Shown: positions 3,997 through 63,487 of the stretch, piece by piece
Numbering within the stretch: the first letter of the stretch is position 1
Layout of the letters: the number at the start of each line of letters is the position of its first letter
Assembly (NCBI GenBank): GCA_017163975.1
Contig: JAFFSR010000316.1
Coordinates: forward strand, 3,074,001-3,138,000
DNA: 64,000 nucleotides
From: Anastatus disparis
Lineage: Eukaryota; Arthropoda; Insecta; Hymenoptera; Eupelmidae
Reading direction: 5' to 3'
Program-made: the position numbers and the translations under genes
The notes under the pieces: model-generated
What the model was told of the DNA's origin: nothing
What the model saw: the letters and a program-made list of their open reading frames with translations, nothing else
Databases searched by the model: none

Positions 3997-5765
3997 TCAT
4001 CTTTTTTTATTCAAAGTAAACCATGCGGTTAACGTTGTTTCGTATTTATTTAATGCTGAATCTATATCATTTTCATTAAAAATTATTTTTTGTTGATTTT
4101 CTGTATGAATACTTAATCTTATTACAGAATGACTTCTGCCACATAATGGTAATTCTTGTAATCTCCATGCTGCTTCCATTGGACTTAAGTATCTACCATC
4201 TATATATTGTGTTATTTCATCATATACTTCTTCTTCATTTTCTTTTATTTTATTTTCTTTTATTTTGCAATATGCTTTATCTACTCCTTTATAAATATAG
4301 TCGTAAATATATTTAATACTTTGTATTGACATACAAAGTTCAGTATTAATATGAGCAGCATATTTTGCTAATAAAAAACTATTGTAAGGAATTACCATTG
4401 AATTATCAACTTTTATAATTTTTTTGTTATTTTTAAAATTGTAGATATAATTATCAGAAATATTATTTCGTCGTTTGTATTGTGGATATTTATTTTCTTC
4501 AATTTTAGTACATTCAGTAAATGGTTTTGGAAAATTTTTTTACATATATTTTTATTTTCATCATAACATGGAGATTTGCTAGTATATGGTCCGTGTAACA
4601 TATGTTTAATTACTAATTTTTGTAAATATATATTTTCCGATGATGGTATTTCAGCTGAAATATACTTATCAATAGATTCTACAGTAAATATTTTATGATT
4701 ATGGTGTAATGTGATAATGATATGTGCATGAGGTAATCCTCTTTTTGAAATTCTATGGAAAATACATAAGCTATTACAGGACCAAAAATTTCATTTTTTA
4801 TTATATCATTTAATAGCATTTTAAATTTTGCATAAAATAATCTTACTGTAATATTTGGTATATCATTAGGAGTTGTTCCTTCAGGAAAATTTTTAAAATT
4901 TCTTTAAGTTCTTTCCATTTTGGGTTACATGTCATTGTTATGAATAAATCAGGTTTTCCTACAGTTCTCATTATTGCCATTGCATCTTGGTAATATTGTT
5001 GCATATATCTTGGACTTCCAATATATGTTGACGGTAAGATAAAAAGATTTCCAATTCTTTCTTTATTTTCAAAATTTGTTGAAACATTTGAAGCACTATT
5101 TTTTACATGATCTAATAAACCTTGATAACATTCTATTCGCAATTGTTTTTGATTATTACGAAAGAAGTTCATTCTGTTACTTTCGACCATTACGTAAGCA
5201 TGTATTATATATTGTTGAGTTAATCGTCCACTATATAATATAGGACTAAAATTTACATTATTTTGTCTGTAATTTATTCTATATAAATAATATTGTAAAA
5301 TTGTAAGATAATCGCTATTTGTAATATTATAATTTTTTTTATATCCAACACTCCAACCTAAATCTCCTGCTGGAAACATTAAAGGAAAAATCATAGGGTC
5401 CACATGATGAAATAATTTATTTAAATAAGTATGAGTAACTTTTTCTCCTGATTTATTATTGGGATAAATGCAAATATCATAATCATCTGGAATTCCCGAA
5501 TTAGTTACAATAATAGCTCCACATTCTGATGTTACAGGTTTATTATATCTATGTTTTTGTTTATCGTTTTTTCTTATAAAATATAATTTATAATTCGGAA
5601 TATTTTTAATATTTGATATTTGATGTAAATGTTTAAAATTTTTAGCCATTGGATTTTTATTCATTATCACTGTTATGATTTGAATATGTTCTTTAATTAA
5701 TTTATCATTATTTTTTAATCTTTTTTCAATAGCAGTGGAATTATCGTATATATATAATTGAATAA
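3997..5765 (-). pseudogene. Rep (HUH nuclease) half of Helitron protein (broken)
   Basis: This is the N-terminal replication-initiator part, which would nick the element end through tyrosines. The Helitron_like_N region starts near 5765 with LYIYDNSTAIEKRL and continues through the piece at 4843-5670, which has the family signature FITMTCNPKWKEL near its end. After a frameshift the HUH motif follows as QKRGLPHAHI, with the His-Ala-His codons at 4722-4730. The two-tyrosine region is in 3997-4398 as QYIDGRYLSPMEAAWRL. The pieces lie in different frames, so the gene is dead. The same order of motifs in the second Helitron at 17020-20307 confirms the reading. Confidence 0.9.
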
Positions 5766-11724: not shown

Positions 11725-12106
11725 GCAGGTCGCACATCTCTATCCTTTTATAATAAAAAAATTCAATTTTCTGCAAAACCTTATGATTGTAGCAAAAATA
11801 AGAAGAAAGCCCCATCTCGTATACTAAAAAGCAATATTTTCTCTTATGAGAAAAAATTATTTTTATCGCTTCGTTTCAAAGAAAACTTTGAAAAACTGAA
11901 TTGTCCATCCAAACCTCGATATTTGATGTTTTTCAAGGTTTTTTTCAAAACGAATCGATAAAAAAATTTTTTCCTAATCAAAGAAAATATTGCTTTTTAT
12001 GATACAAGATGGGGCTTTCTCTTTATTTTTTGCTAAAATTATTAGTTTTTGTAAAAAAATCAATTTTTTGATTACAATAGGACATATATACTCGACCTCC
12101 TCTTAA
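11725..12106. mobile_element. Palindromic MITE (foldback)
   Basis: Inverted arms. GAAAGCCCCATCTCGTAT near 11810 matches ATACAAGATGGGGCTTTC near 12005, AAAAAGCAATATTTTCT matches AGAAAATATTGCTTTTT, and AGGTCGCACAT near the left edge matches the right edge near 12100. Arms are about 160 bp and diverged. No ORF is present. Confidence 0.75.
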
Positions 12107-18507: not shown

Positions 18508-20307
18508 TCATCATATTTTAAAAAACAAAAAAATACGGGTCTTTTATTTTTTCGTATTCTACCTGACGGATGTAATGCATTTCTTCATGCAAAGACCCAA
18601 TTAACTAATGAAGATGAAGAATGGAATGGATGTTTGGAAGAAGCATCTTTAACAGGATCCCCTTATGCTCTTTGTGAATTATTTGCTTTTATTTGCGTTT
18701 TTCATTATCCTATAAATGCACGAGATTTATATGAAAAAGATAAAGATAAATTTTAGCACCCTGAATACAAAAAAAATATAGGTGAAGATCATGCATTGAA
18801 TGTTATTAAAAATAATTTACAAGTCAATGGATTTTCATTAAACGATTTTAATTTACCTAACATAAGCACATTTATAGAAGAAGATAATAATCAAACAATT
18901 TTAAATCATAATAATAATATTCTTAATGAATTAGAAATGAAAATAAATTCTAATGATAAACAAAAGCAAATATTCAACTCTACTATAAAAAGTTTAAACA
19001 ACCAAAGTAAAGAAAAATATATTTTTATAGATGGACCAGGTGGAAGTGGGAAAAGTTATTTACTTAACGTTTAAATAGCTTATTTTAAATATCATACCAT
19101 ACATTATTTATGTGTAGCTTGGACAGGTATAGCAGCGAATTTATTAGTCGATGAAAAAACCGTGCATACAACATTTAAACTACCGTTAAATATAACAGAT
19201 TGTACAAGTTGTAATGTTAAGCCTAATTCTGCAGAAGGCAAACAATTGAAGAAAACACAAATAATTATTTGGGATGAAACATCCATGACTTCAAAATTTG
19301 ATTTTGAAGCAGTTGATCGTTTTTTCAAGATTTATGCGATGTAAACCAACCCGTTCGGTGGTAAAACTGTAATTGTATCAGAAGATTTCAGGCAAACATT
19401 ACCAATTGTACGACATAATAGCCGTATGAACATTATTGAAAATTCAGTTAAATTTAGTTTATCATGGCAAAATTTTAAGCAAATGAAGTTAAATGAAAAT
19501 CTGCGAGTTTCGGATAGTGATAATAATTTCAAACAATGGTTATTAGAAATCGGAGAAGGGAAATGCCGCAATGTTTTTGAAGATGATAATGAACTAAGTG
19601 CTATACCAGATAATTTTATCATTAAAATAAACAATACGAATCTAACGGAAAAAGTTATTTAGGCTCCTAAAAATAATGATAATATTGAAATCAATAACAA
19701 TGTTTTGAATTCAATGGAAGGAAACCATGTTGAATATTTAAGTATTGATACAGCTGAAGATGATAACAAAGAAAATTTAGATATTATGTTACCTACAGAA
19801 TTTTTAAATATGTTAACTCCTAATGGAGTTCCACCACATAAATTACATTTAAAAGTAGGGGCTATAATAATACTTTTAAGAAATTTAAATGTCAATAAGG
19901 GACTTTGTAATAGAACAAGGTTGATAGTGAAAAAATTGCCTAAATATTCCGTTCAAGCAGAATTAGCAACTGGTCAAAACAAAGGTAAATTAGTTTTTAT
20001 TCCAAGAATAAGTTTATTTCCATCTACGGAAGAAATTCCATTCAATATGCAACGAAAACAGTTTCCTATTAGATTAGGATTTGCAATGACTATTAATAAA
20101 TCACAAGGACAATCTTATAAAAAAATTGGTATTTATTTGCATTCACCAGTTTTCAGTCATGGGCAATTATATGTTGTTCTTTCAAGGACGAAATTTAAAA
20201 ATAATTAAAAATTATTTTTAGGTGACCACGCTATTGTCAACGGAGAAAATAAAAATGATCAGAACACAATATATACAAAAAACATTGTTTATAAAGAGAT
20301 ACTATAA
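18508..20307 (+). pseudogene. Second Helitron: PIF1 helicase region (broken)
   Basis: The Helitron continues after the inserted DNA with LTNEDEEWNGCLEEASLTGSP at about 18600-18660. Walker A as IDGPGGSGKSYLL is near 19028-19066, then IIIWDETSMTSKFDFEAVD, and SEDFRQTLP-like sequence near 19380-19400. The C-terminal block (INKSQGQSYKKIGIY, FSHGQLYVVLSR) is at 20090-20190, and a VYKEIL terminus ends at 20307. Stops after Walker A, near 19344 and near 19662, plus one near 20208, break it. Motif order is complete for a helicase, but no working protein is possible. Its closest relative in this window is the minus-strand Helitron at 500-6047. Confidence 0.9.
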
Positions 20308-20580: not shown

Positions 20581-20599
20581 GCATATTTATAGAGCTAAA

Positions 20600-21135
20600 T
20601 AAAATATGGAACCTAAAAATTATTGGGCCCAAAAAAATATGAGGCCCAAAAAAATATAAAGCCCAAAAAATATAGAGACCAAAAAAAATATTGGGTTCAA
20701 AAAATTATTGGGCCCAAAAAAATATAGGGCGCAAGAAAATATAGGGCTCAAAAAATATAAGACCCAAAAAATATAGAGACGAAAAAATTATTGGGCCCAA
20801 AAAAAATAAGGCTTAAGAAAATATAAAACCCAAAAAATATAGAGACCAAAAAAATATTGGACCCAAAAAAATATTGGGCCCAAAAAAATATTGAGTCCAA
20901 AAAAATATAAGGTGCAAGAAAATATAAGGCCCAAAAAAATATAAAGCCCAAAAAAATATAGAACCAAAAAAATATTGGACCCAAAAAAATATAAGACCCA
21001 AAAAAATAAGGCTCATAAAAATAAAAAGCCCAAGAAAATATAAGGATGAAAAAAAGAAGGGCCCAAAAAAATGGACACTGAATAAAAATATAGGGCCCAA
21101 AATAATATAAGACCCAAAAAAATATGGCTCAAAAA
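20600..21135 (+). repeat. Short minisatellite, GGGCCCAAAAAAATAT type
   Basis: About 30 irregular copies, 17-20 bp each, of an AAAAAAATAT block followed by a two-to-six base GC-rich block (GGGCCC, AAGCCC, AGACCC). Minus-strand frames give repeated FFWALYFFG-like hydrophobic peptides that are only repeat translation. Confidence 0.9.
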
Positions 21136-28426: not shown

Positions 28427-28584
28427 ATTATGTAACATGGCAATTTGACCATGTTACTTAAACGTATAATATTAAGCGTCAAGACGACAGAAAGAAGCCT
28501 ACAACTGTCGGCAAGAAGGAAAGCAGACCACGCGAGTCAAACTCTTAGCCCCGTACACGAGTTCGTTGGCACACACGCGCGAGC

Positions 28585-28590
28585 ATATAA
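28585..28590 (+). promoter_or_regulatory. Probable LTR TATA box
   Basis: ATATAA in the context GAGCATATAAGG, the only good TATA-like element in a GC-richer stretch of the LTR. Transcription would then start near 28615, which is inferred. The identical box in the 3' LTR is at 38895-38900. Confidence 0.5.
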
Positions 28591-29185
28591 GGCTGGCATA
28601 GGGCTAGCAAGCCGCTTGACTAGAGTAGCTAACTTGGGGTCCGTTGAGGATCGTCTGTCTCTCTCTTGCGGCGCGCGCAGCAGACCGCAAGAGCAACGAG
28701 CTTGGTCGACAGAAAGAAATCGCCATTGCTTTATTCTTTCTGTCGTCGTCACGAAGTAAAGAGCGTTCGTCACTGTAATATTATACAGTATTTTCCTTAT
28801 TTCTTTTTTTTGTGCTCTATAGAGAGTAAATTGCTGTGTGAGTGAGACTCATTAGCGTTATTTTTCTTGTATCTAATAAAATCAAGTCTTGAGCCTTGAT
28901 TTTGCTAGTGCCAGCGTGCTTTATCACTAGCTTAACGTTATTGCTTTCTTTTTGTTGTGCGACGTGTGTGCCGGGCGACTTCGTGCGCGTACTAGTGCTA
29001 AATACCCTTCGTGCTATTAATATTATTTTTTTGTGTGCTTGTGCCCTTTTTTTTTAGTGCGTAATTGTTGAAACTATCTGCGTTTCTCTTGCCGATAGTT
29101 TCTCTACTATTAAATACGGCGTCGCGTACGTTATACGCGGCTGGCGTCCATCTTGAACGTGCGTGTTTTAACTCTGTAATTAATT

Positions 29186-29191
29186 AATAAA
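29186..29191 (+). terminator. LTR polyadenylation signal
   Basis: AATAAA about 100 bp before the LTR end, repeated at 39497-39502 in the 3' LTR, where it would end the genomic transcript. Confidence 0.6.
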
Positions 29192-29290
29192 GTACATTGT
29201 CTGTATCATTATTCTATATATAATTTTATGCATAATTCCTTAAAATACATATATTTAGTGCAACCTCCTAATCCCCAAGGTTGTCACAAC

Positions 29291-29309
29291 TGACGCAACC
29301 AACGTGGGG
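29291..29309 (+). promoter_or_regulatory. Primer-binding site region
   Basis: TGACGCAACCAACGTGGGG starts three bases after the 5' LTR. Relatives in the window (43191, 50250) have TGGCGCCCAACG at this place, so this copy's site is a modified version. The primer tRNA was not identified. Confidence 0.65.
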
Positions 29310-30679
29310 CCGACAAAAATTTCAGTGAAAATTTTTGTTAAAATCACGGGATTAAAATAATTTTTTTTGTGCTTGTGCGTAAAAATTCAGAGAAAAAAAT
29401 TGTGCGTAAAAATTAAAAGAAAAATTTGTGCGAAAAATTAAAGAAAAATTTGTGCGAAAAATTGTGCGTAGAATTAATCGAAAAAATTTATAAAATTAAC
29501 ACGAAATAGAAAAAAAAAAAAAAAAAAAAACTGTTACAACTTGAACAAGACTTTTTTTTGTTTGTGCGAAAAAATTAATAGAGAAAATTTTGTGCATAAA
29601 TCAAAAATATAAACAGTGCTAAAAGTGAAAGACATTTGGCTGTGCGAACATTCACGCGTTTCCGGTTCGCCACGTGGTCGCCATTACGAACGACGCACAC
29701 ACGACGAAGCTGAAAGAGGACGCTCTGGCAGCCATTTTCTTTTTTTTCTCTCTTGTCCTTCCTTGATGCTGTCGCTTGGTAAAGTATAGAGAAAATTTTT
29801 AATTATCTTGCAGCAAGTTTGTCGTTAGCTTTTAATCGCTTTAAACTAAAATTTTTTATTTTAACGAAAAATAATTTTTTTTGGTTGTGTGCTTTGACAC
29901 TTAAAATAAATTTTTTTTTCTAGTTGTTTCGTGCGTTCACATGAAATTTTTTTTTGCTTCTAGAGTGCATTGAGATAAGTTTTTTTGGGTATTAAAATTA
30001 TAAAAAGTTTTTTGCTTCGATTTTGCTTAAAATTAGTAGCTTAATTTATATATGTATAGCTGCACAGTTGGGTGATCGAACAAATTGTTTGATTCGCCAT
30101 TATACAAGCCAACGCAACGACAAGTTTCGTTAGTATTTCAAGTGTGGCGAATTTTGGTCGCTGTAAATTGACGCTATCGTTTACGAACTATTAGTGCGCA
30201 ATTCAATTAGCATAGCACGATTTTTTTTAATGCTTATTGCCTTGGCTTGTCACAAGTGTGCAACTATATAGAGCAATCATTATACATACATATGCATATT
30301 CATATTTGTATCGTGTTCTCACGTAGTCGTGCCGCGCAGTCAGAGAACAAATCGTTCCTTTGACTGTGCTTCGTAAAGTACTTTTCGGTGAAAATTTCTT
30401 TTTTGTGCTGGCTGTTAAAAATAATTCTTTTTATTACTTAAAACTTTTCATAATAATATTTGTCCTTCATTTCATAATTTTCTTTTGCTTTTATGTACTT
30501 AAATATTGGTCCAGAATTTTTTTTATATTCCCTATAATAGTTTAAACTTTTCAAATTTTTAGTATTTACCTGATTTAATAAAATAACTATACGGCTCTTT
30601 TGAGAGTAGAAGCTTAACTATAAAACTAAGTAGTTTTTGTTAAGTCTTAAATCGTGTAGCACGACTACGTTATAATCTA

Positions 30680-30725
<46 letters not shown>

Positions 30726-31371
30726 TATCATTTATTTTTGTCTGTGCTTGTCCATTTTTTTTTCTTGCAATCCCTACCCTTATAGCATCCTAACCATCCA
30801 GCATATATTCCTTTGAGCGACGCCATCTTTAGCAAGTTTGCTTGGTAGTAGCTTATTACACGTGCTTCGAATCCTTATCCACCGCGCGCAGTGACTATAC
30901 CGACCGGACAATACCGTCGGCGTAGATAGTTCGTTATACGTGAACATTTTCTTGCTTGGCTTTGACGATTATTATTCGTTTTTTTAATACAATTTTTTTT
31001 GTTGTGCTTTAGTGTACGTAATTAACATTTTTTTTTGCTATTAAAAATTTTTTTTGTTTCTCAAAGTAGAATAAGTTTTGTGCTTGTTTTTTTTCCTTTC
31101 TTGCTTACGAAGCTAAGATTGCATTGCCTACTGCTAATAATTAAAGTAATTTAATTAACCGTAGAATAGTGCCTAAGCTTAAAGTTGAGCTTATGATTTT
31201 TTTTTGTTGTAAATAAAGATCAACGTGTTTTAAATTTAATTACGGAATACAGCACTGAGACATTCCTTAGAGCAACCCTCCTGAGATAACGTCTCGTATA
31301 AAATTATTAGCGAATTTTTGTTAGCAACCTTTAGATAGGATTTAGCTTGAAAGATTTTTTTATATATACGA
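29310..31371 (+). other. Long untranslated leader of the gypsy element
   Basis: About 2.06 kb between primer site and gag start, with many homopolymer A and T runs, repeated TTGTGCGAAAAATT phrases at 29360-29600 and a (TA)n run at 30683-30720. Short ORFs here look accidental. Packaging or internal translation signals might lie here, but none can be named from sequence alone. Confidence 0.6.
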
Positions 31372-33300
31372 ATGGCGAACCGACAATTAGAATTAGAACC
31401 CCTTTTGATTTCGGCTGATTTGTGCCGTCGAGATGTTTTTAGAGCGGCTGACGAGATCGCCCACCTCGTCGAACGACTTTCAATTGATCAAATGTTTGCC
31501 TATAGTCGTAGAGGAATCAGCACGGCGGGATGTCAAGCTAATTTTAAGTATCGAGTCTTGAGATATGAGCTCAGAAGACATTTGGGCGAACGAAGCGCGG
31601 CGTGGGACCCAATGGTCGATGAAGTCGCGGATGAATCGCGATTAGGGTGTAGTACGCTCCCCACCGGCAACTCCACCACTCTGCTCAATGAACAGCACGA
31701 AGCTCAGACGACTATACAGGCGGACGTTCATGCTAGTAACGAGCCAGTACTCCCTACTGGTCAAACACTAGGGATGTACCGAGATCCAATAACGTTTAAT
31801 AACTCGACTGCACAATCGCGTAGCAACCCGTTCCTACCTTCAACGAGTGAATCTGGAACCCATGTGCCTCCCAGCGCTGGTAATGTTGTTGGTCAACCGT
31901 TGACCACTCCTCAAGCCCAATCCACCCAATACCCCACTACATCAAGAGCGGTAACGTGGCCAGATGCCACCCAGTATTCTGAAGCGATGGATCTCACCGC
32001 AGCTGCCAATCGAAGAAACGGGCCACTTAACCTTATTACGTGTGCCAGCAATAATGTCGTTGTCACCAATACTACCAATGTTTGCCCTTCTTCACTAGTT
32101 ACTTCAAGCCAGTCGTATAGAGCAGCGAGCACCCTTCAAGCTAACTACGGAGGACGTACCCAAGCACCAGCTTCGTATTCATACCATTACACTCAAGCAC
32201 CTTCCTATTCTCATCCGTGGAGTCAGATCCCTCCCATTATACCCCCTCCTGGATATGTGCCCCGATCACCACCTCTGATCCCACCGCCACCTTTTTTCCC
32301 TACTGTTCCAGCGCAACCTATGACTAGGCCCACAATCTATAGGCCACATAACCCCCTGGAGGCGAATTCGGCTCATGCTTTTACCGAACATTTCCCGTCA
32401 AGCATAAACGCGTCAATGTTCAATCGTGAGAAATATACTAGTCAAATTTTTGCCAATTGGCATGTTTCATTCAAGGGAGACCGAAGAAAGGACCCTGAAT
32501 CCTTTTTAACTAATTTGCAAGGGTGTAGAGCGGCACATGACCTCACTGTAGATACTATTATTAAGGCGTTACCTGCAGTATTGGATGAAGAGGCTTATCA
32601 ATGGTTTCGGAGGGAGAATCCAAGTTGGCGCACCTTCGAAGATCTAGTTGAAGCTTTTCGCCTGCAGTTCTGCATGGAAAACGTGCAAGAACATCTTAAA
32701 ATTGAACTCGAGCGCAGAACGCAAGGCTCTCAGGAAGATGTTAGTACTTATCTGACTAAACTGAGAGACCTTATGGACCAAGTTCGTCCGCTGATGACCT
32801 TAGATGAACAATTGAATCGAGCATACCGAAATCTGCATCCTAGCTACCGTCAACGAATCTACAGGGACCAGTTCAATAGTTTCACGGAACTACAACGCCT
32901 TGGCAAGAGAGAAGAAACCCGCAGAGCCCAAGATAAAGCGTACCGGCCTCCTCCAGCCCCTAGCGAGTCGTTATTCCCTACTACAGCGTGCACGGGTACT
33001 AAGCAGTCTCGATTAAATAAAACTGCTCTCATTTCTCCTCTTGATCACATCGATGAGCAACAGCATCATGACCAAACTCCTATATTAGCCCCTGTCACCA
33101 GTACCCTTCAAGCACCCGTCACAAACCCCTCTGCTGTTACCCAACCACCAAGGAAACCGGAACCTAGTAGAATTCAGCAAAACCCGCTTCAAGAAATTCC
33201 AACGCGCGGTTTACTAATAAATCCGGAAATACTAATCAAGTCAGGCCTCCCAACAACCAAGCGCGTACGCAGAACCAAAATAGTGCCAAGCGTCCCTTAA
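31372..33300 (+). CDS. gag: Gag polyprotein, matrix and capsid part
   Basis: 642 residues from ATG, after a long leader. Residues 1-90 form a helical N-terminal region (MANRQLELEPLL, then charged). Residues 95-345 are Ser/Thr/Pro/Tyr-rich and probably disordered. Residues about 349-540 are capsid-like: FANWHVSFKGD, ALPAVLDEEAYQWFR, FRLQFCMENVQEHL and RRTQGSQEDVSTYL match the general retrotransposon gag capsid pattern. The C-terminal 60 residues are low complexity. It would form the cytoplasmic particle that packages element RNA. It ends without nucleocapsid zinc knuckles; these follow in the -1 frame (33171-33497), so full Gag probably needs a frameshift, or this copy has a one-base indel near 33180-33300. 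Confidence 0.93.
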   Translation: MANRQLELEPLLISADLCRRDVFRAADEIAHLVERLSIDQMFAYSRRGISTAGCQANFKYRVLRYELRRHLGERSAAWDPMVDEVADESRLGCSTLPTGNSTTLLNEQHEAQTTIQADVHASNEPVLPTGQTLGMYRDPITFNNSTAQSRSNPFLPSTSESGTHVPPSAGNVVGQPLTTPQAQSTQYPTTSRAVTWPDATQYSEAMDLTAAANRRNGPLNLITCASNNVVVTNTTNVCPSSLVTSSQSYRAASTLQANYGGRTQAPASYSYHYTQAPSYSHPWSQIPPIIPPPGYVPRSPPLIPPPPFFPTVPAQPMTRPTIYRPHNPLEANSAHAFTEHFPSSINASMFNREKYTSQIFANWHVSFKGDRRKDPESFLTNLQGCRAAHDLTVDTIIKALPAVLDEEAYQWFRRENPSWRTFEDLVEAFRLQFCMENVQEHLKIELERRTQGSQEDVSTYLTKLRDLMDQVRPLMTLDEQLNRAYRNLHPSYRQRIYRDQFNSFTELQRLGKREETRRAQDKAYRPPPAPSESLFPTTACTGTKQSRLNKTALISPLDHIDEQQHHDQTPILAPVTSTLQAPVTNPSAVTQPPRKPEPSRIQQNPLQEIPTRGLLINPEILIKSGLPTTKRVRRTKIVPSVP

Positions 33301-33497
33301 ACAAGAACCCGACCCCTATAGTCGAGGATTTTTGGCGAAAACAAAAAGAACCGTGCTTCAGGTGCGGACAACTGGGCCATTGGTTGCGGGAATGCACTCA
33401 ACCTCGTAAATGTTACGGCTGTGGGCAGTTGAATACTCACATCAAAGAATGCAAACGATGTAATTTAGCGGGAAACGAACAACGGAGGGAACATTAA
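33171..33497 (+). CDS. Gag nucleocapsid segment in the -1 frame, two CCHC knuckles
   Basis: The frame is open from the stop at 33168 to the stop at 33495-33497 and has no start of its own. It overlaps the end of gag by 130 bp. It encodes an Asn/Arg/Gln-rich basic linker and then two perfect CX2CX4HX4C knuckles: CFRCGQLGHWLREC and CYGCGQLNTHIKEC (about 33355-33456). These normally bind the element RNA. Within the overlap, the only X-XXY-YYZ heptamer in the gag frame is A-AAC-CCG at 33180-33186, a weak-looking slip site; an indel in this copy is the alternative. Its own 3' end holds the GGGAAAC site that leads to pol. Confidence 0.85.
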   Translation, partial: NSAKPASRNSNARFTNKSGNTNQVRPPNNQARTQNQNSAKRPLNKNPTPIVEDFWRKQKEPCFRCGQLGHWLRECTQPRKCYGCGQLNTHIKECKRCNLAGNEQRREH

Positions 33498-36400
33498 GAG
33501 TCGGTGTTTCTTCCGATGAAGCGTGTCAGACTCGACCGCTTCTAAATCGACAAAGTAGTCCGTCTACATGCTCGAACCACGAAAACCTAGAGCAAAGCGT
33601 AGTTCGACCATTAGAAGCGGGTCATAAGTTAAAAGAGAGCAATATAGCAGATAGCCATTACAGCGTCGAAAAATCGACGACTTTAAAGAGCGAGCAACTA
33701 AAAAGTGAGCAGAGCAAACGAGCAATACGTTCTAGTGAGAACATAGATAGCAAAATAGCACAAACTGGGACAAATAACCCAGGTTTTAATCAATCGTGCC
33801 CATTTACCCCTTCTAGCAACATAAAATATTCACCTTTAGCCACGAGCAATGTAGCATCACCCAAACCTGTATCATTGGTGCAACAAAACCTTGATATTAC
33901 GGGAGAACCACGGCAATTTTTAGTTTTAAACCTCAATGGACATAAAATAAAGGGCTTATTGGATAGTGGTTCTGTGCATTCGTATTTGGGCATGAATGTA
34001 GCATTAGAATGGAAAGATAAAAGTACGCCTCAGTCTACCTTTGTGAGTGTTGCTGATGGTACTTCAGTCAATATAGATGGGCTGTTACAGGTCACAGTAA
34101 CGATAGACGACGATACACAGACCATACCCTTTAGAGTTGCAGAAAATATACTTTACGAATGCATTTTAGGTATCGATTTCATGCGTTTAATGAAAATTAG
34201 CATCGATTATGAGCACGATACCTGGTGTACCCCTAAAAAGATTCCTCATTACTTTTATCCTTATAGCACTGACCCTTTTAGCTACGCTGCACTAGCTACC
34301 CTTGGAGGTTTAATACGAGCCACTGAAGCAGAGAAGAACGAAATAAACCTTGTGTTAAATAATTTAATACCACCCACACCCGAGATCCTAGGAGTTACTA
34401 ATTTAGCTATACACAAGATTGATGTTCAAGGACATGACCCTATTCGCCAGAAAACTAGGAGATACTCACCACAAATGCTGAAGGTTGCCCAAGAAGAAGT
34501 CGACCGAATGTTAAAAGAAGGTATCATAGAACCTTCAACAGGTCCGTGGAGTAGCTGCCCCGTTTTAGCTCCTAAACCAAATGGAAAATATATGTTTTGC
34601 ATTGATTATAGGCAAGTGAATGATGTCACTAAGAAGTTCGCCTACCCTATCAAAAATATGGATGATATTCTTGATAAATTAAGATGTGCTAAGTATATTT
34701 CCAAATTAGATTTAAGTCAAGCTTACCACCAAATACCAATGGATCCTGATAGCAAGGAGATTACCGCGTTTGCAGTCCCAGGCAGAGGCCTATTTCAATT
34801 TAATCGCATGCCGTACGGCCTGACCAACGCTCCCGGGTCCTTCCAAAAAGTCATGGATAATTTAATCAAACCGAGCTGGGAACCGTACGTATTCTCCTAT
34901 TTAGATGATGTCATTATAGCAACCACCACTTTTAGCGAGCACTTACAATGGTTAAGCAAAGTATTAAGGGCCCTAAAAACAGCAAATCTGCAAATCAATA
35001 GAGATAAATCAGAGTTCTGTTGCTCAGAAGTAAGATATCTTGGATATATTGTAAATGAAAAAGGTCTAAGAACCGATGAAGAGAAAATTCGACCTATTTT
35101 AGAATATCCGGCGCCAACCAATCTTAAACAACTACGAAGATTTTTAGGAATGGTTGGTTGGTACGCACGTTTTATTCCCAATTTAGCTCAAATAAAAATA
35201 CCATTAACTTGTTTAACAAGGAAAACAACGCGATGGCATTGGCAGGAAGAGCAAGAATCAGCATTTCAGCAGCTTAAGCAAGCCCTCACCGAAGCACCCG
35301 TTCTAGCACGTCCCAATTTTGATTATCCTTTTATTCTACAAACGGATGCCAGTAACTTCGCCATTGCAGGTGTATTAATTCAAGAGATCAATGGAGAAGA
35401 ACACCCCATCTACTATATAAGTAGAACCTTAAATCGTGCCGAGCGTAACTACACCGTATCCGAAAAGGAGTGCTTAGCAGTTATTTGGGCAGCAGAACGA
35501 CTCAGGGCATATCATCAAGGGACCCCATTAAATGTAATCACTGACCACCATAGCCTTCTATGGCTGAAAAATCTAAAAGATGCAACGGGTAGATTAGCTA
35601 GGTGGCACACACGATTACAACAATTTGATATTAAACTAACTCATCGCCGCGGAAGCCAGCTTAAAGTCCCCGATGCTCTTTCACGAGCTCAAGAAAACCT
35701 TATTGATTTAGCCCCTTTTGCAGCCCTGGATACCGATGATACCTGGTACAAAAGAAGAAAAGAAATGGTGCAGCAATACCCCACTAAGTACCCCGATTTC
35801 AGAATAGAAAATGAACTACTTTACTTCCATCACCCAAATGATAACATAGACCCTATTATCCCCGACCTAGATGCCTGGAAATTAGTTCTCCCTTTTGCTG
35901 ATCGTGAAAAAGCCCTTTTTGAAGCCCATAACACCCCTCAAGCAGGCCATATGGGAATGGAGAAAACCTTCGCTCGTTTAGCTACTTATTATTATTGGCC
36001 GGGATATTACCACGACACTTGTCAGTATATAAGAGCGTGCCAAGAGTGTCAAGCTCATAAACAGTCTCAACAGGCTCCAGCCGGTCTAATGGGAGAAAGG
36101 TATATTCAAGGCCCATGGACGGTAGTCTCAGCAGATATAAATGGCCCAAAACCACCTTCAAGAGCCGGTTATAAATATATTATAGTGTTTGAAGACCTTT
36201 TTACTCGGTATGTAGAATTAAAACCCCTCCGTAAAGCAGACGGTAAAAACGTGATTCAAGCATTCGAAGAACTTGTCATAAATAGATGGGGCTGTCCACA
36301 ATGTCTAGTCACCGATAACGGACTAGAATTTAAAAATCAAATCGTAGATGACCGTTTAGAGATGTATGGCATTAAACATTCTACTACTCCCCCTTATCAT

Positions 36401-37168
36401 GCGCAATCAAATCCGGTAGAGCGAATCAATCGTAATTTAAAACCTATGATTAACAGTTTTATAGAGCAAGACCATCGTGATTGGGATAAACACTTAGGAG
36501 AATTTAGCTTCGCGTTAAATACTATGTTACATTCGTCAACGAAATTTACTCCAGCATTCTTAAATATGGGTCGCAATCCTATCCCTACAATCCTATTCCG
36601 TAAATCCATAGAAAATCCTACACCAATTCAGCAAGGTAATATAGAAGAATGGGCAGACAGAGCAAAAAGATTGCCTGCGATACATGATCTCGTTAAGAAA
36701 TATGCAGATCAAGCAACGGCTCGTCAAGCTAAATATTATAATAAAAATAGACGGCATGTAACGTTTGAACCGGGAGATCTTGTAAGTCGTAGAAACCATG
36801 CATTGTCATCAGCTGTAGACAAATTCGCTGCAAAGTTAGCGCCAAAATTCATTGGCCCGGCCAAAGTTATTAAGATATTCTCACCGGTGGTATATCTAGT
36901 TGAAGACGTCGACACCAAGCGACAGACTAAAGTTTTTGTTAATGATCTTAAAAGATATATACCGCCTCGACGACAACAGCACCATAACCCATCCTCTTCT
37001 ATTTCAGAAAATGCAACGAGCAAGGCCGACCAATTTACATCAAATGAGGCGGCAAGTGTGCGTAGGACCCGGCAGAGGGCCATACAACGATCTGACGTTC
37101 CGTCCACCGCACGAGGAGATGTGCGCAAACGTGGAAGACCACGAAAAGCCACCATGCCCACGCACTAG
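33464..37168 (+). CDS. pol: Pol polyprotein: protease, RT, RNase H, integrase
   Basis: The frame is open from 33464; the first ATG is at 33875 and residues are counted from it. Aspartic protease LLDSGS (catalytic Asp 30). Reverse transcriptase from about 190, with FCIDYRQVND and catalytic YLDD at 342-345. RNase H with TDAS (Asp 491) and ITDHHSLLWL. Integrase zinc region with His 685, His 692 and CQECQ. Core residues Asp 754, Asp 814 and Glu 849, the last spacing being 34 rather than the usual 35. The C terminus is basic and ends in an AT-hook-like RKRGRPRK. There is no internal stop, so the copy may be functional. Entry is probably by the slip at 33470. Protease precedes RT and integrase comes last, as in Ty3/gypsy. 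Confidence 0.96.
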   Translation, partial: FSGKRTTEGTLRVGVSSDEACQTRPLLNRQSSPSTCSNHENLEQSVVRPLEAGHKLKESNIADSHYSVEKSTTLKSEQLKSEQSKRAIRSSENIDSKIAQTGTNNPGFNQSCPFTPSSNIKYSPLATSNVASPKPVSLVQQNLDITGEPRQFLVLNLNGHKIKGLLDSGSVHSYLGMNVALEWKDKSTPQSTFVSVADGTSVNIDGLLQVTVTIDDDTQTIPFRVAENILYECILGIDFMRLMKISIDYEHDTWCTPKKIPHYFYPYSTDPFSYAALATLGGLIRATEAEKNEINLVLNNLIPPTPEILGVTNLAIHKIDVQGHDPIRQKTRRYSPQMLKVAQEEVDRMLKEGIIEPSTGPWSSCPVLAPKPNGKYMFCIDYRQVNDVTKKFAYPIKNMDDILDKLRCAKYISKLDLSQAYHQIPMDPDSKEITAFAVPGRGLFQFNRMPYGLTNAPGSFQKVMDNLIKPSWEPYVFSYLDDVIIATTTFSEHLQWLSKVLRALKTANLQINRDKSEFCCSEVRYLGYIVNEKGLRTDEEKIRPILEYPAPTNLKQLRRFLGMVGWYARFIPNLAQIKIPLTCLTRKTTRWHWQEEQESAFQQLKQALTEAPVLARPNFDYPFILQTDASNFAIAGVLIQEINGEEHPIYYISRTLNRAERNYTVSEKECLAVIWAAERLRAYHQGTPLNVITDHHSLLWLKNLKDATGRLARWHTRLQQFDIKLTHRRGSQLKVPDALSRAQENLIDLAPFAALDTDDTWYKRRKEMVQQYPTKYPDFRIENELLYFHHPNDNIDPIIPDLDAWKLVLPFADREKALFEAHNTPQAGHMGMEKTFARLATYYYWPGYYHDTCQYIRACQECQAHKQSQQAPAGLMGERYIQGPWTVVSADINGPKPPSRAGYKYIIVFEDLFTRYVELKPLRKADGKNVIQAFEELVINRWGCPQCLVTDNGLEFKNQIVDDRLEMYGIKHSTTPPYHAQSNPVERINRNLKPMINSFIEQDHRDWDKHLGEFSFALNTMLHSSTKFTPAFLNMGRNPIPTILFRKSIENPTPIQQGNIEEWADRAKRLPAIHDLVKKYADQATARQAKYYNKNRRHVTFEPGDLVSRRNHALSSAVDKFAAKLAPKFIGPAKVIKIFSPVVYLVEDVDTKRQTKVFVNDLKRYIPPRRQQHHNPSSSISENATSKADQFTSNEAASVRRTRQRAIQRSDVPSTARGDVRKRGRPRKATMPTH
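33470..33476 (+). promoter_or_regulatory. Canonical -1 slip site GGGAAAC between Gag and Pol
   Basis: In the nucleocapsid frame the codons read G-GGA-AAC, the same heptamer used for -1 frameshifting by several retroviruses. It lies inside the 34-bp window (33464-33497) where the nucleocapsid and pol frames are both open. Slipping here joins the zinc-knuckle frame to pol. I found no strong stem-loop at the usual 5-9 nt distance by eye; a small one (TCGG/CCGA) begins about 22 nt downstream. Confidence 0.75.
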
Positions 37169-37892
37169 GGCCTGCATGAGAGGCACCCGCCATTTATGCG
37201 ATGCTAACGAGGAGATAGATGCGCCGTCAGCCTCTGCCACCCTTCCAGCTCCACCACAAAACCTTCCAGCTCCAACATCACCACCACTTCCAGCCATACA
37301 ACAACCACTACCAAATCCTATCCCCAACTCACCCTCCTTCAACCCATTCCGGTTAACCTCACCACCTCTTCCTCAAATCCCTGTTCCTGCTCCAACTCCT
37401 ACCCTTTCCCCTTCCCAAGCTGTCCTATGTCTCCAATCCATATTACCATCTATTGCAGCCATTAACCCCTTCCAGCTTCCCTCCCAAAAACCATATCCCA
37501 TCCTACACATACCATCCAATCACCAACACAATCCTTCAACACATACACCACCGCCACTGTTAGCTACACTGTCACCCTGTCCTATACCTAGCACTTCCCA
37601 AACTACCCCTCCAAATATCCCTTCCTTGATGTCCCTAGAAATATCCCCTCCAGCTAATTTCCCAATCCCTGCCCTTCCAGCTCGTGAAAAATCGCCTACG
37701 CGACCTGTCGCGGCTGGAGAAAAGCCCGATCCAGCACTGGGAGCTGCAAGACCAAAGTGCTGGAATTGTAAAGGGGACAATCATAATTGGACCGTGTGTA
37801 GGGCACCTAAACGGACCTTTTGTCATGGGTGCGGCGAACCAGGCGTGACCAAGCGTACGTGTCTTAGGTGTAGACGCCACGAACGTCGCTAA
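36900..37892 (+). CDS. ORF3: proline-rich protein with C-terminal zinc knuckles
   Basis: A frame of 330 codons, +1 relative to pol, overlapping the end of pol by 269 bp. The first 80-90 codons lie under pol and may not be used; an ATG at 37011 is another start. Residues about 125-270 are very rich in Pro, Ser, Leu and Thr. The C terminus has CWNCKGDNHNWTVC (37758-37799), a CX2CX4HX4C knuckle, followed by a cysteine cluster CHGCGEPGVTKRTCLRC and a basic end. This cysteine pattern is typical of nucleocapsids in other insect gypsy gag proteins but differs from this element's own gag knuckles. No membrane segment is seen, so it is not an envelope. It might be a captured gag tail or an RNA-binding accessory protein. 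How it is translated is unknown. Confidence 0.75.
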   Translation: MKTSTPSDRLKFLLMILKDIYRLDDNSTITHPLLFQKMQRARPTNLHQMRRQVCVGPGRGPYNDLTFRPPHEEMCANVEDHEKPPCPRTRACMRGTRHLCDANEEIDAPSASATLPAPPQNLPAPTSPPLPAIQQPLPNPIPNSPSFNPFRLTSPPLPQIPVPAPTPTLSPSQAVLCLQSILPSIAAINPFQLPSQKPYPILHIPSNHQHNPSTHTPPPLLATLSPCPIPSTSQTTPPNIPSLMSLEISPPANFPIPALPAREKSPTRPVAAGEKPDPALGAARPKCWNCKGDNHNWTVCRAPKRTFCHGCGEPGVTKRTCLRCRRHERR

Positions 37893-38728
37893 AAAATCTA
37901 AGTAATAAATAGTAAAATCAAATTTCTTTAGTTAATTATAGAACCTTACCAACCCATTACCCTTTCAGCATATTATATCATTATCTACAATCATTATTCT
38001 TTTGTGTGTACTTAATAAGCTTGTTAAATTACCCTTCATTCATTCATATTCATTATTAAGCTCATTCAAATTGATAGCTACTTGTAACGATTTTTTTTAC
38101 TCAAAAACTTATTCATGCAATATTTTGTTTTAATTGATTACCATTTAATACAACATAAAAAAATTATCTTAGCTAAATTTCATGTAATGTAATTTAATGG
38201 CGTATATAATTATAAAAATTTGCTGCAATGTAATAATCACAGAACCCAGCATGCATCGACAAAATACCAGAGCGTCATCTCTCAGTAAGTAAAATTTGCT
38301 TTATCTAAATATTCAATAGTGTTTTTTTTGTATGAATAATAAATATATTAGAATTTTCTTAGGCGTATGAATGTAACTACATGTAAGAATGGGATATGCG
38401 TGCTTTAACTAGGTAAATATTCATATAACTAGATTTAAGAAATATAACTTTTGTAAATGATATTAAATGGACCAGCCAGTCGCGTCATTTTACATTAAGC
38501 TCCCTCACATACAGCGCGGAACACTTACCCTTAATTTAAATAAGTAATATCAACAGACATAGCAGAAGAAGATTTTCTTATATACACTTTACACCGATGC
38601 AGATAACACCGGTTATCTTAGACTAAGCCCTAATATTTAAATATAGCCAAAAATTTTTTTTGTTTGTTTCTAGTTTGTGCTCTCGATATTTAACGAAATT
38701 ATCGGTTCCACCGAAGTACTTTCGTGTG
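37893..38728 (+). other. 3' non-coding region of the gypsy element
   Basis: AT-rich, no ORF. It ends with the block TCGGTTCCACCG...CTTTCGTGTGG before the polypurine tract, a block also present at both old LTR starts near 50365 and 50700. Confidence 0.6.
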
Positions 38729-38739
38729 GCGGGGGGGAA
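38729..38739 (+). promoter_or_regulatory. Polypurine tract
   Basis: GCGGGGGGGAA directly before the 3' LTR, the expected primer site for plus-strand DNA synthesis. Confidence 0.85.
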
Positions 38740-38740
38740 T

Positions 38741-39599
38741 TGTAACATGGCAATTTGACCATGTTACTTAAACGTATAATATTAAGCGTCAAGACGACAG
38801 AAAGAAGCCTACAACTGTCGGCAAGAAGGAAAGCAGACCACGCGAGTCAAACTCTTAGCCCCGTACACGAGTTCGTTGGCACACACGCGCGAGCATATAA
38901 GGCTGGCATAGGGCTAGCAAGCCGCTTGACTAGAGTAGCTAACTTGGGGTCCGTTGAGGATCGTCTGTCTCTCTCTTGCGGCGCGCGCAGCAGACCGCAA
39001 GAGCAACGAGCTTGGTCGACAGAAAGAAATCGCCATTGCTTTATTCTTTCTGTCGTCGTCACGAAGTAAAGAGCGTTTGTCACTGTAATATTATACAGTA
39101 TTTTCCTTATTTCTTTTTTTTGTGCTCTATAGAGAGTAAATTGCTGTGTGAGTGAGACTCATTAGCGTTATTTTTCTTGTATCTAATAAAATCAAGTCTT
39201 GAGCCTTGATTTTGCTAGTGCCAGCGTGCTTTATCACTAGCTTAACGTTATTGCTTTCTTTTTGTTGTGCGACGTGTGTGCCGGGCGACTTCGTGCGCGT
39301 ACTAGTGCTAAATACCCTTCGTGCTATTAATATTATTTTTTTTGTGTGCTTGTGCCCTTTTTTTTTAGTGCGTAATTGTTGAAACTATCTGCGTTTCTCT
39401 TGCCGATAGTTTCTCTACTATTAAATACGGCGTCGCGTACGTTATACGCGGCTGGCGTCCATCTTGAACGTGCGTGTTTTAACTCTGTAATTAATTAATA
39501 AAGTACATTGTCTGTATCATTATTCTATATATAATTTTATGCATAATTCCTTAAAATACATATATTTAGTGCAACCTCCTAATCCCCAAGGTTGTCACA
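38741..39599 (+). repeat. 3' LTR of the young gypsy
   Basis: 859 bp, near-identical to 28431-29288 (one substitution and one T-run length change). Followed by the target duplicate ATTA. Confidence 0.97.
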
Positions 39600-39603
39600 A
39601 TTA

Positions 39604-46739: not shown

Positions 46740-47846
46740 GAATAAATAAAACAATCTTGACATTATTAAATATCTCATTAATATAACTAAATATATTATT
46801 GAACAGTAAAGTAATTTAATAGAGGTGATATAATAATTAATTGGATCAATGTAATATATTCTTCTTTTAATAAAAATTTAATAAAAATAATAGAATCAAT
46901 ACGTTAGAATTAGTAAACATTTTATTAAGATAATTAAATATATTATTAAACATTAAAGTAATTTAGTAAAAGTATTATAATATTCAATTGAATTAGTGAA
47001 ATATATTCTTATGTCAATCAAAACTTGATAGAATTAATATAATAAATATATTCGGTTTAATAAATATTTCATTGAGATAATCAAATATATTATTAAACAT
47101 TAAAGTAATTTTATGGAAGTGTTAATATAATATTTAATTGAATCAATGAAATCTATTCTTGTTTCAATAACAACTTGATAGAAATAATAGAATAAATATA
47201 TTTGATTCAATAAATACTTCATTAAGATAATCGAATTTATTATTGAACATTAAAGTAATTCAACGGAAGTGATAATGTAACATTTAATTAAATCAGTGAA
47301 ATATATTCTTGTTTCAATAACAATTTAATAGAAATAATAGAATAAATATATTTGGTTTAATAAATATTTCATTAAGATAATCAAATAAATTATTAAACAT
47401 TAAAGTAATTTAATAGAAGTGTTAATACAATATTTAATTAAATCAGTGAAATATATTCTTGATTCAATAACAATTTGATAGAAATAATAAAATGAATATA
47501 TTTGGTTTAATAAATATTTCATTAAGATAATCAAATATATTATTAAACATTAAAGTAATTTAATAGAAGTGTTAATACAATATTTAATTAAATCAGAGAA
47601 ATATATTCTTGATTTAATAACAATTGGATAGAAATAATAAAATAAATATATTTGGTTTAATAAATATTTCATTAAGATAATCAAATATATTATTGTACAT
47701 TAAAGTAATTTTATGGAAGTTTTAATATAATATTTAATTAAATGAGTGAAATATATTCTTGTTCCAATAACAACTTGATAGAAATAATAAAATGAATATA
47801 TTTGGTTTAATAAATATTTCATTAAGATAATCAAATATATTATTGT
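46740..47846 (+). repeat. 150-bp tandem repeat
   Basis: The phrase CATTAAAGTAATTT recurs at 46951, 47098, 47248, 47398, 47548 and 47698, a 147-150 bp spacing. The array resumes at 49185 after the solo LTR. Confidence 0.9.
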
Positions 47847-47850
47847 ACAG

Positions 47851-49184
47851 TGAAGCGTTCCCGACTTTATTCACGGTCGCCAGGTAATATTTTAATTACC
47901 GAATTTAAATTTACTTCATTATTTTAATTAATTACATGCATATACAAGGTGCATACAACAATATTGTATAAGAAAATTATGTTTATCGACGATCTCCTCC
48001 AGTGCAATACTCTTGGAGATGCGATAATTTATAATTTTCTTTACGTGTGGAGGAGAGGGTAGAATGATAAAAGTTATTATCGACGACTCCGTTGAGTGCA
48101 ATACTCTAAAGAGTGCGATAATCAACTTTTTTATTATATGAGATATGTAGAAAAGTGTTTAAATCGACGACATCTTTGAGTGCAATACTCTTAGATGTGC
48201 GATAAATAACACTTCTATTTAATGCAAAATGAATAAACAAATTATTATCGACGACATATCCAAGTGCAATACTCTTCAATGTGCGATAATTAATTTGTTT
48301 AGTATTTATATGAAAAATGATTAATGAGATGAGATGAGTTATACTTTTATCAATAACTTTTTAAACACAGTCTCATTTAAATTTGAAATACTTAATCTTT
48401 TTATTAAAAAATTAAGAAAATATATATTTTACAAAGATTCAAAAGTTACTTAGTATTTTAAGACAGAATGCTTAAATCTTATACTTTTGACAGTATAAGA
48501 TTGAATGAATATAGTATCCATGTTAGATGTTACATGGTCGAACATCTAAAAGATAATGAGAGAGCTTGCTTGAGTTCACGCTCTTTTATATTATTTCTTA
48601 AACCTTCTATGAGGTTCTATTTCTTATTGAAGAATTATATTTTAGGAAATAGAATGTTCCATAACATTTATTTTAGATATTTACAAAAGAAACATTTAAT
48701 TAAGATAAATGTATTAGTAAAAGAAACATTCTATTTCCTTTACATTTCAAATAACTATTTTTTATAGTTAATTTTATTATTTATTAATTGAAAAAGTTAA
48801 TCTTTTATATTTTAATTAATATCTTTAAACTTTAAACAGAGTAATCAGTTTCATACATATTATATAAATTGAATGTTCTATTTATATATACACAATTATT
48901 TTAGAAAGTTACATTTTATTATTAACCATTAAATATTGATAATACTTTTTATTAAAAGAAATAGAACATTCCATTTCTATAATCATTTTACTATATCTAT
49001 ATATATACATTTGAGTTATCTTATCGACCTCAGTAGGTAACTATGAAGTCCTACTTATTCTTTTAATGTAATTTAAATTTCTTATAACTAAAATTTATTC
49101 TATCTTTTAAATAATATAGTCATTCTTATGACATATTTGTGTTTAATTTAATAATTATACCCAAAATCAATATGAGCCGTTACA
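47851..49184 (+). mobile_element. Solo LTR inserted in the 150-bp array
   Basis: 1,334 bp beginning TGAAGCGTTCCC and ending GAGCCGTTACA. It interrupts the satellite exactly within ACAT: left flank ACAG (47847-47850) and right flank ACAT (49185-49188), a 4-bp duplication with one change. The end CCGTTACA matches the old gypsy LTR end at 43188, so a Ty3/gypsy origin is likely. It contains many hairpins: the tandem set at 47972-48301, then ATCTTATAC/GTATAAGAT near 48475-48500, TTAGATGTT/AACATCTAA near 48521-48549, and GAAATAGAATGTT/ACATTCTATTTC between about 48655 and 48740. The 99-codon frame at 48468-48767 crosses these hairpins and is probably not a gene. Confidence 0.75.
47972..48301 (+). 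other. Four tandem structured hairpins with invariant loops
   Basis: Units: 47972-48039, 48069-48130, 48154-48213 and 48234-48301. Their ATCG starts are at 47985, 48079, 48163 and 48247 (spacing 94, 84, 84). Each folds as an outer stem, stem TATCG/CGATA, a 3-versus-1 internal loop (ACG opposite G), a middle stem, an internal loop, and a terminal AGT-GCAAT-ACT hairpin. Invariant: ATCGACGA, AGTGCAATACTCT and TGCGAT. Variable but always paired: the middle stem (ATCTCC/GGAGAT, ACTC/GAGT, ACATCT/AGATGT, ACAT/ATGT) and the outer stem (for example GAAAATTAT/ATAATTTTC and AAAGTT/AACTTT). I match it to no known ribozyme, riboswitch or tRNA-like family. Confidence 0.85.
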
Positions 49185-49480
49185 ACATTAAAGTAATTTT
49201 ATGGAAATGTTAATATAATATTTAATTAAATCAGTAAAATATATTCTTATTTCAATAACAACTTGATAGAAATAATAAAATAAATATATTTGGCTTAATA
49301 AATATTTCATTAAGATAATCAAATATATTATTAAACATTAAAGTAATCTAATGGAAGTGTTAATATAAAATATAATTAAATCAGTGAAATATATTCTTGA
49401 TTCAATAACAACTTGATAGAAATAATAGAATAAATATATTTGGTTTAATAAATATATCTTTAAAAAAAATTTAATATCTG
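49185..49480 (+). repeat. 150-bp array resumed after the solo LTR
   Basis: CATTAAAGTAAT at 49186 and about 49337 continues the spacing of 46740-47846. Confidence 0.85.
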
Positions 49481-62995: not shown

Positions 62996-63487
62996 CCCTA
63001 GTGGAAATCGAATCTGTGAATAACTGGGAATAACTGGAAATAACTGGAAATAACTGGGAATAACTGTGAATAACTGGGAATAACTGTTATAAACTGTTCA
63101 GTTTGAGACAGGAATAACAGTTATTCCCAGTTATTCCCAGTTATTCCCAGTTATTCCCAGTTATTCTCAGTTATTCCCAGTTATTCACAGTTTATAACTT
63201 AAAAATAATTTGAAAAAACAGAGGTACGAATAACAGTTATTCCCAAATATATTTATAATAAAAAAAAATAAAAAAATATATATTTTTTTCATTTTTTCAA
63301 ATTTATATTTTTCAAATTATTATTAAACTAAACTGTAAATAACTGGGAATAACTGTGAATAACTGGGAATAACTGGGAATAACTGGGAATAACTGTTATT
63401 CCTGTCTCAAACTGAACAGTTTATAACAGTTATTCCCAGTTATTCACAGTTATTCCCAGTTATTCACAGATTCGATTTCCACTAGGG
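62996..63487. mobile_element. Palindromic element with internal AATAACTGGG repeats
   Basis: 492 bp, ends CCCTAGTGGAAATCGAATC / GATTCGATTTCCACTAGGG. Both arms are largely made of the 12-bp tandem unit GGGAATAACTGT and variants, in opposite orientation, around an AT-rich centre (63190-63330). A 2-bp CA flanks both sides and may be the target duplication. Confidence 0.85.

Follow-up and report, generated by a model that had tools for sequence, protein, structure and literature searches.

Structured R and leader regions are known in retroviruses and in LTR elements (PMC3601003, PMC5454406, PMC11381356, PMC4974528). In the long R regions of retroviral LTRs, conservation has been linked to stem-loops (PMC3601003), and hairpins or palindromes at the 5' end are reported to be used for dimerisation by both Ty1 and Ty3 (PMC5454406, PMC11381356). 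Ribozymes are reported in the LTRs of plant retrozymes (PMC4918200), and the retrotransposon Evade carries an ENE that is described as binding the poly(A) tail in a triple helix (PMC12501189). Tandem repeats are reported in the 5' UTRs of some mosquito gypsy elements (PMC3286476).

The locus described here lies in a 64-kb window (the whole stretch of DNA that was analysed) and consists of four tandem hairpin units, with invariant internal and apical letters but variable stems, inside an LTR-like insert. A literature search using narrow terms, and covering for the most part journals outside subscription, found no published description of such an array.

Results

An LTR-like insert in a satellite

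The array is contained in an insert of 1334 bp (47851..49184, with 47851 a deduced boundary and minus the probable sense strand), which interrupts a monomer of a 150-bp satellite. The satellite runs from 46763 to 47844 on the left and from 49184 to 49463 on the right, and the flanks resume it in register with a 3-bp overlap. The insert reads TGAAGCG...GTTACA from end to end on the plus strand and TGTAACGG...GCTTCA on the minus strand; because TG...CA is symmetric, and is found on both strands, the ends do not give the orientation. The flanking tetramers ACAG (47847..47850) and ACAT (49185..49188) match in three of four letters and may represent a target-site duplication. No second copy of the insert is present within the 64-kb window. 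The earlier note had placed the array in what looked like a solo gypsy LTR. The TG/CA ends and the in-register interruption of the satellite support a solo-LTR setting, as may the one-mismatch flank repeat ACAG/ACAT.

Other repeats share the window. A separate full Ty3/gypsy element (28431-39600), with 860-bp LTRs that are 99.8% identical and with gag and pol ORFs that have Pfam matches, looks recently inserted; in the best 120 of 1401 matches, the nearest named relatives of its Pol are from Trichogramma wasps (53% for P0006), which points indirectly to an insect host. Helitron pieces occur at 2435-5670 on the minus strand (PIF1 helicase and Helitron_like_N) and at 19705-20208 on the plus strand (Pif1 2B domain). 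Arrays of a 10-bp unit (CTGGGAATAA) alternate with arrays of its reverse complement at 63014-63469, and a 17-bp minisatellite, AAAAAATATAAGGCCCA, fills 20588-21135 with about 30 copies.

Four units with one invariant core

The hairpin units, for which minus is the inferred sense although both strands fold, span 47975..48036, 48069..48130, 48153..48214 and 48237..48298. Each contains a 41-nt core (47985-48025, 48079-48119, 48163-48203 and 48247-48287, with starts spaced by 94, 84 and 84) that follows one formula in all four units, ATCGACGA-N8-AGTGCAATACTCT-N6-TGCGAT, in which the spacers between blocks are constant at 8 and 6 nt. Copies of ATCGACGA start at 47985, 48079, 48163 and 48247, those of AGTGCAATACT at 48001, 48095, 48179 and 48263, and those of TGCGAT at 48020, 48114, 48198 and 48282.

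In an 85-column alignment of the four units, all 27 columns of the three blocks are invariant, as against 9 of the 58 columns elsewhere. Mean identity among the units falls to 35% in N8 and 36% in N6, and stands at 44% and 54% in the 22-nt outer flanks. The chance of finding 27 invariant columns at the outside rate is about 1e-22, a rough figure that takes the columns as independent. Plain recent tandem duplication is excluded by this contrast between block and other columns. The three blocks had been described as unchanged across four units at this same spacing, which holds for 27 of 27 letters, and the accompanying argument against simple tandem duplication is borne out as well.

Paired changes in the stems

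On either strand each unit is predicted to fold into a single rod. The z-scores of the RNA folds, for units 1 to 4, are -6.3, -4.6, -5.3 and -3.6 on the plus strand and -5.6, -4.9, -5.4 and -3.9 on the minus strand. The common fold starts with an outer stem and AUCG/CGAU, continues with a bulge, one C-G pair and a second bulge, and reaches a small loop by way of an inner stem (4-6 pairs), mismatches and AGU/ACU; in unit 1 it is modelled as a stem with two one-base bulges, a 3x3 internal loop and the invariant apical hairpin. Both one-base bulges recur in the folds of all four units, and all or nearly all of them share mismatches at inner positions 6-8. The inner stems named in the earlier note (ATCTCC/GGAGAT, ACTC/GAGT, ACATCT/AGATGT and ACAT/ATGT) are present in the predicted folds, the weakest being that of unit 4, which has ACAT/ATGT only.

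Scored on an ungapped alignment of the four units, the RNAalifold consensus structure leaves 89 of 92 cells paired and 3 broken. Nine of its 23 pairs have changed on both sides and none on one side only, a count made on the consensus of the same four units, which favours that structure, and from a sample of only four sequences, which are related by duplication and so hold few independent events. Within that sample of related units, the counts agree with the description given before this analysis, of loops that are held while stems change in pairs. When partners were shuffled, none of 500 trials reached the observed value on four of five covariation measures; on the remaining measure, pair types, 3 of 500 did so. 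Sliding the register by 1-3 gave far worse results, with 28-52% paired and 1-4 pairs changed on both sides. At inner stem positions 1-5, which were picked after inspection, 16 of 20 pairs are Watson-Crick, a value reached in 0 of 20000 shuffles.

The outer arms, compared with local arms, give p values for units 1 to 4 of 0.0025, 0.020, 0.034 and 0.0055 on the plus strand and of 0.0075, 0.0535, 0.060 and 0.012 on the minus strand (1e-5 and 2e-4, respectively, by Fisher combination); taken singly, they beat the local AT-rich sequence only modestly. The outer arms of unit 2 alone, in a free-register duplex, are not significant (p 0.10), and on the plus strand units 2 and 3 could swap theirs with little loss (total -37.3 vs -37.5 kcal/mol). 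When the inner 8-nt arms were permuted in all 24 ways on the minus strand, the true pairing was outdone (-13.5 vs -15.1).

Matched changes in two arms could arise by mutation and without selection if one arm serves as the template from which the other is rewritten, by template switching. This process reportedly gives rise to hairpins that show multibase compensatory changes, and preserves them (PMC8794818), and the satellite setting here is AT-rich. Homogenisation of that kind, however, would erase the recurrent bulges and the inner mismatches (positions 6-8), and it leaves unexplained why 27 letters, those in the bulges and the loop among them, are unchanged, so that we consider a purely mutational origin very unlikely.

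In a 678-nt context (47883-48560) the model helices are also predicted to form, with mean probabilities of 0.80-1.00 on the minus strand and 0.71-1.00 on the plus strand. Folds computed with DNA parameters are as significant as the RNA folds (z -3.3 to -6.7). That equivalence, together with the ability of both strands to fold about equally, would suit hairpins of single-stranded DNA that act in reverse transcription, or extruded cruciforms bound by protein, and invariant blocks at fixed spacing also suit a DNA-binding protein acting on double-strand sites, as in gypsy insulators. A duplex-DNA site, however, needs no complementary arms, the LTR setting supplies a transcript, and to our knowledge there is no DNA system of this shape in an LTR; a role as DNA is in our judgment unlikely. 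The array is, in either form, a real, structured and selected-looking folded RNA or DNA element.

The probable sense strand

A candidate core promoter, TATAAAAG, lies upstream of the array on the minus strand at 48583..48590, with a second TATAAAAG starting at 48809 on the same strand. A candidate polyadenylation signal, AATAAA (47866..47871, minus), is found about 15 nt before the LTR end and is one of nine minus-strand AATAAA in this AT-rich LTR. These minus-strand promoter and poly(A) signals are short and AT-rich and occur several times in the LTR; the plus strand has one TATAAA and one AATAAA, in an order that is not useful. A 12-mer, TGGCGACCGTGA (47871..47882, minus), which we take to equal the 3' end of insect tRNA-Arg, is a possible primer-binding site. 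If it serves as one, the LTR may end near 47884, and the insert would then be an LTR plus a bit of leader. With either end, 47851 or near 47884, the array follows the promoter on the minus strand.

The minus strand is also slightly favoured as sense because, in the 678-nt context, the inner stems are firmer there (0.95-1.00 vs 0.73-0.92); the tally of G-U against A-C mismatches favours neither strand. The LTR is probably read from the minus strand, opposite to the letters quoted in the earlier note. That note had taken the plus strand as the transcript, and its quoted strings are thus probably antisense. If minus is indeed the sense strand, the array lies between the TATA box and AATAAA, in R, and would consequently sit at both ends of the element RNA.

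The U3 side of the LTR (48600-49185) has three heat-shock-element-like GAAnnTTC cores, at 48652, 48871 and 48964, where 0.26 would be expected; at least three occurred in 0.24% of 5000 mononucleotide shuffles. The core is palindromic and therefore carries no strand information.

Known families and relatives

The absence of known structural cores had been claimed from inspection, with Rfam put forward as the check. Across the 64-kb window, none of 4227 Rfam families, known ribozymes included, matched at its gathering score, which supports the claim. With E values up to 10 allowed, the best match between 47940 and 48330 was mir-507 (E 0.97, 16.7 bits vs a gathering score of 79), and the near-matches in the array were dismissed as chance.

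This outcome bears on two further readings. The retrozymes, with hammerheads in their LTRs, show that LTRs can carry ribozymes (PMC4918200), and conserved internal-loop and apical letters combined with free stems in LTR repeats would fit a self-cleaving RNA. Against this, the Rfam search with E values up to 10 returned only unrelated weak matches, few of the invariant letters are unpaired (a five-base loop and two single bulges), and an element with four cleavage sites in R would cut its own RNA; we consider a ribozyme highly improbable. The four clustered hairpins are likewise of pre-miRNA size, and the weak match was to a microRNA family, which might point to a microRNA or other small-RNA precursor. 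Its score, however, is far short of the gathering threshold, and the conservation is reversed, with arms 35-54% identical and the loop 100%, where conserved arms would mark a precursor, so that this origin is extremely unlikely.

A covariance model of the four units, run over the 64-kb window, listed two of the four units on the plus strand and three minus-strand matches on the units; our reading is that the other two plus-strand units are absent from the list through a one-base alignment overlap with listed units or with each other. The sole match outside the array (11872-11951, E 0.35) was rejected as a fold-back repeat that lacks the conserved blocks. The surrounding sequence, 11850-11975, is a fold-back palindrome with ATCG...CGAT near its arms.

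Exact or relaxed core patterns had no match in three pattern searches of viral contigs, and two LTR-end patterns had none in the same viral collection, which has little power for an insect element. The same limited power applies to prokaryotic genome contigs, where core patterns again gave no match. Looser core patterns in viral contigs gave 1 + 16 loci, and all 17 were discarded for having at least 8 mismatches among 27 letters at the best site.

Discussion

A loop and bulges fixed in sequence, with stems fixed only in pairing, are the usual pattern of a protein-bound RNA hairpin. Because the loop and bulge letters of this array are fixed, its stems free but paired, and the distances between its modules fixed, we propose that a protein reads a composite surface. 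The array would then act in cis, as a structured RNA of a Ty3/gypsy-type LTR retrotransposon that provides multi-copy docking for Gag or a host factor, a reading that we think could equally well prove right or wrong. It rests on one LTR copy and four related units; that the array is transcribed, from which strand, and that a protein binds it, and which one, are inferences.

According to this proposal, the array would be transcribed, probably from the minus strand, within R, which would place four copies near the 5' end of the RNA and, in a full element, four also near its 3' end. Each copy would be a rod with an outer stem of free sequence, the invariant AUCG/CGAU helix and a C-G pair set between single bulged bases, a U and a C on the sense strand; above these would come an inner stem of free sequence, a purine-rich mismatch and, at the apex, the invariant loop AGUAUUGCACU. 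Bulge module and loop, both invariant, might together present a single composite surface for recognition on one side of the rod, with stems of indifferent sequence holding the two modules at fixed distance and register, and the four copies could lend avidity for one RNA-binding protein. The partner might be the element's own Gag, for packaging, by analogy with retroelement leader hairpins, or a host factor that controls how the RNA is exported, translated or formed at its 3' end.

The U1A pre-mRNA site tunes polyadenylation, and SNF is the counterpart of U1A in insects. A specific form of the docking reading would make the array a set of U1A/SNF sites, whose position in R, ahead of the poly(A) signal, would let them adjust polyadenylation of the element's RNA. 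U1A is reported to bind the heptamer AUUGCAC in many contexts (PMC2203988), and exactly this heptamer occurs in the invariant sense (minus) loop of all four units, where its first five letters are predicted to be unpaired with probability of at least 0.91; moreover, only about 100 nt lie between the end of the array and the terminal AATAAA downstream of it. The final A and C of the heptamer are nevertheless predicted to be paired (unpaired probability 0.06-0.16 and 0.00-0.01), and AUUGCAC as a U1A site is for this reason a lead only. The predicted loop is closed by U-A, lacks the closing C-G pair of the U1 site and does not leave the whole heptamer accessible, while 20 further invariant letters, the bulge module among them, are left unexplained. 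The idea also needs the minus strand as sense, and its motif was picked after the fact from many known ones. A literature search found no paper joining AUUGCAC, U1A and a retrotransposon. We regard U1A/SNF docking as quite unlikely.

If protein docking is the function, the units could exemplify a new class, a 41-nt two-bulge hairpin with an invariant loop, spreading in tandem arrays within R of insect Ty3/gypsy-type LTRs, such that a single dedicated protein (Gag, or a host factor, for instance U1A/SNF) would be recruited repeatedly to each RNA, at both ends. We offer this generalisation tentatively and with more doubt than belief. The ways in which animal Ty3/gypsy elements label their RNA for packaging, or control the RNA ends, are poorly understood. 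A motif in four copies in which invariant letters stand out from free stems is a ready-made bait, giving both a precise consensus for searching insect genomes and a short RNA for pulling down the partner.

Comparison with known systems

The array would be a variant of a kind of structure already known, the cis-acting RNA structure of LTRs. It would resemble the R and leader stem-loops of retroviruses and LTR elements, among them the packaging and dimerisation hairpins of Ty1 and Ty3, in being structured RNA in or beside an LTR, near the RNA 5' end, with stems conserved by pairing; unlike them, it repeats one 27-letter motif, which has two fixed bulges, in four tandem copies that are nearly identical. 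No palindromic kissing loop is evident in it. With the hammerhead-bearing retrozymes it shares a small conserved RNA motif inside LTRs, but it has four copies in one LTR and matches neither the hammerhead nor any other Rfam ribozyme. The Evade ENE, similarly, belongs to an LTR element and acts in cis, as an RNA structure close to the 3' end of the transcript. ENE triple helices use a U-rich internal loop, whereas the sense-strand internal loop of the array is purine-rich. The U1A sites (U1 snRNA stem-loop 2 and the U1A pre-mRNA element) likewise present AUUGCAC in a hairpin loop; the loop of the array is predicted to be smaller, has no closing C-G pair and is accompanied by an extra invariant bulge module. 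In BIV TAR RNA, a stem that lies in R has two one-base bulges with just one base pair between them. The array has the same arrangement of two one-base bulges around one base pair, in a stem that is probably also in R, but its sequence is different, its bulges lie on the 3' side in the sense strand, and its loop is invariant.
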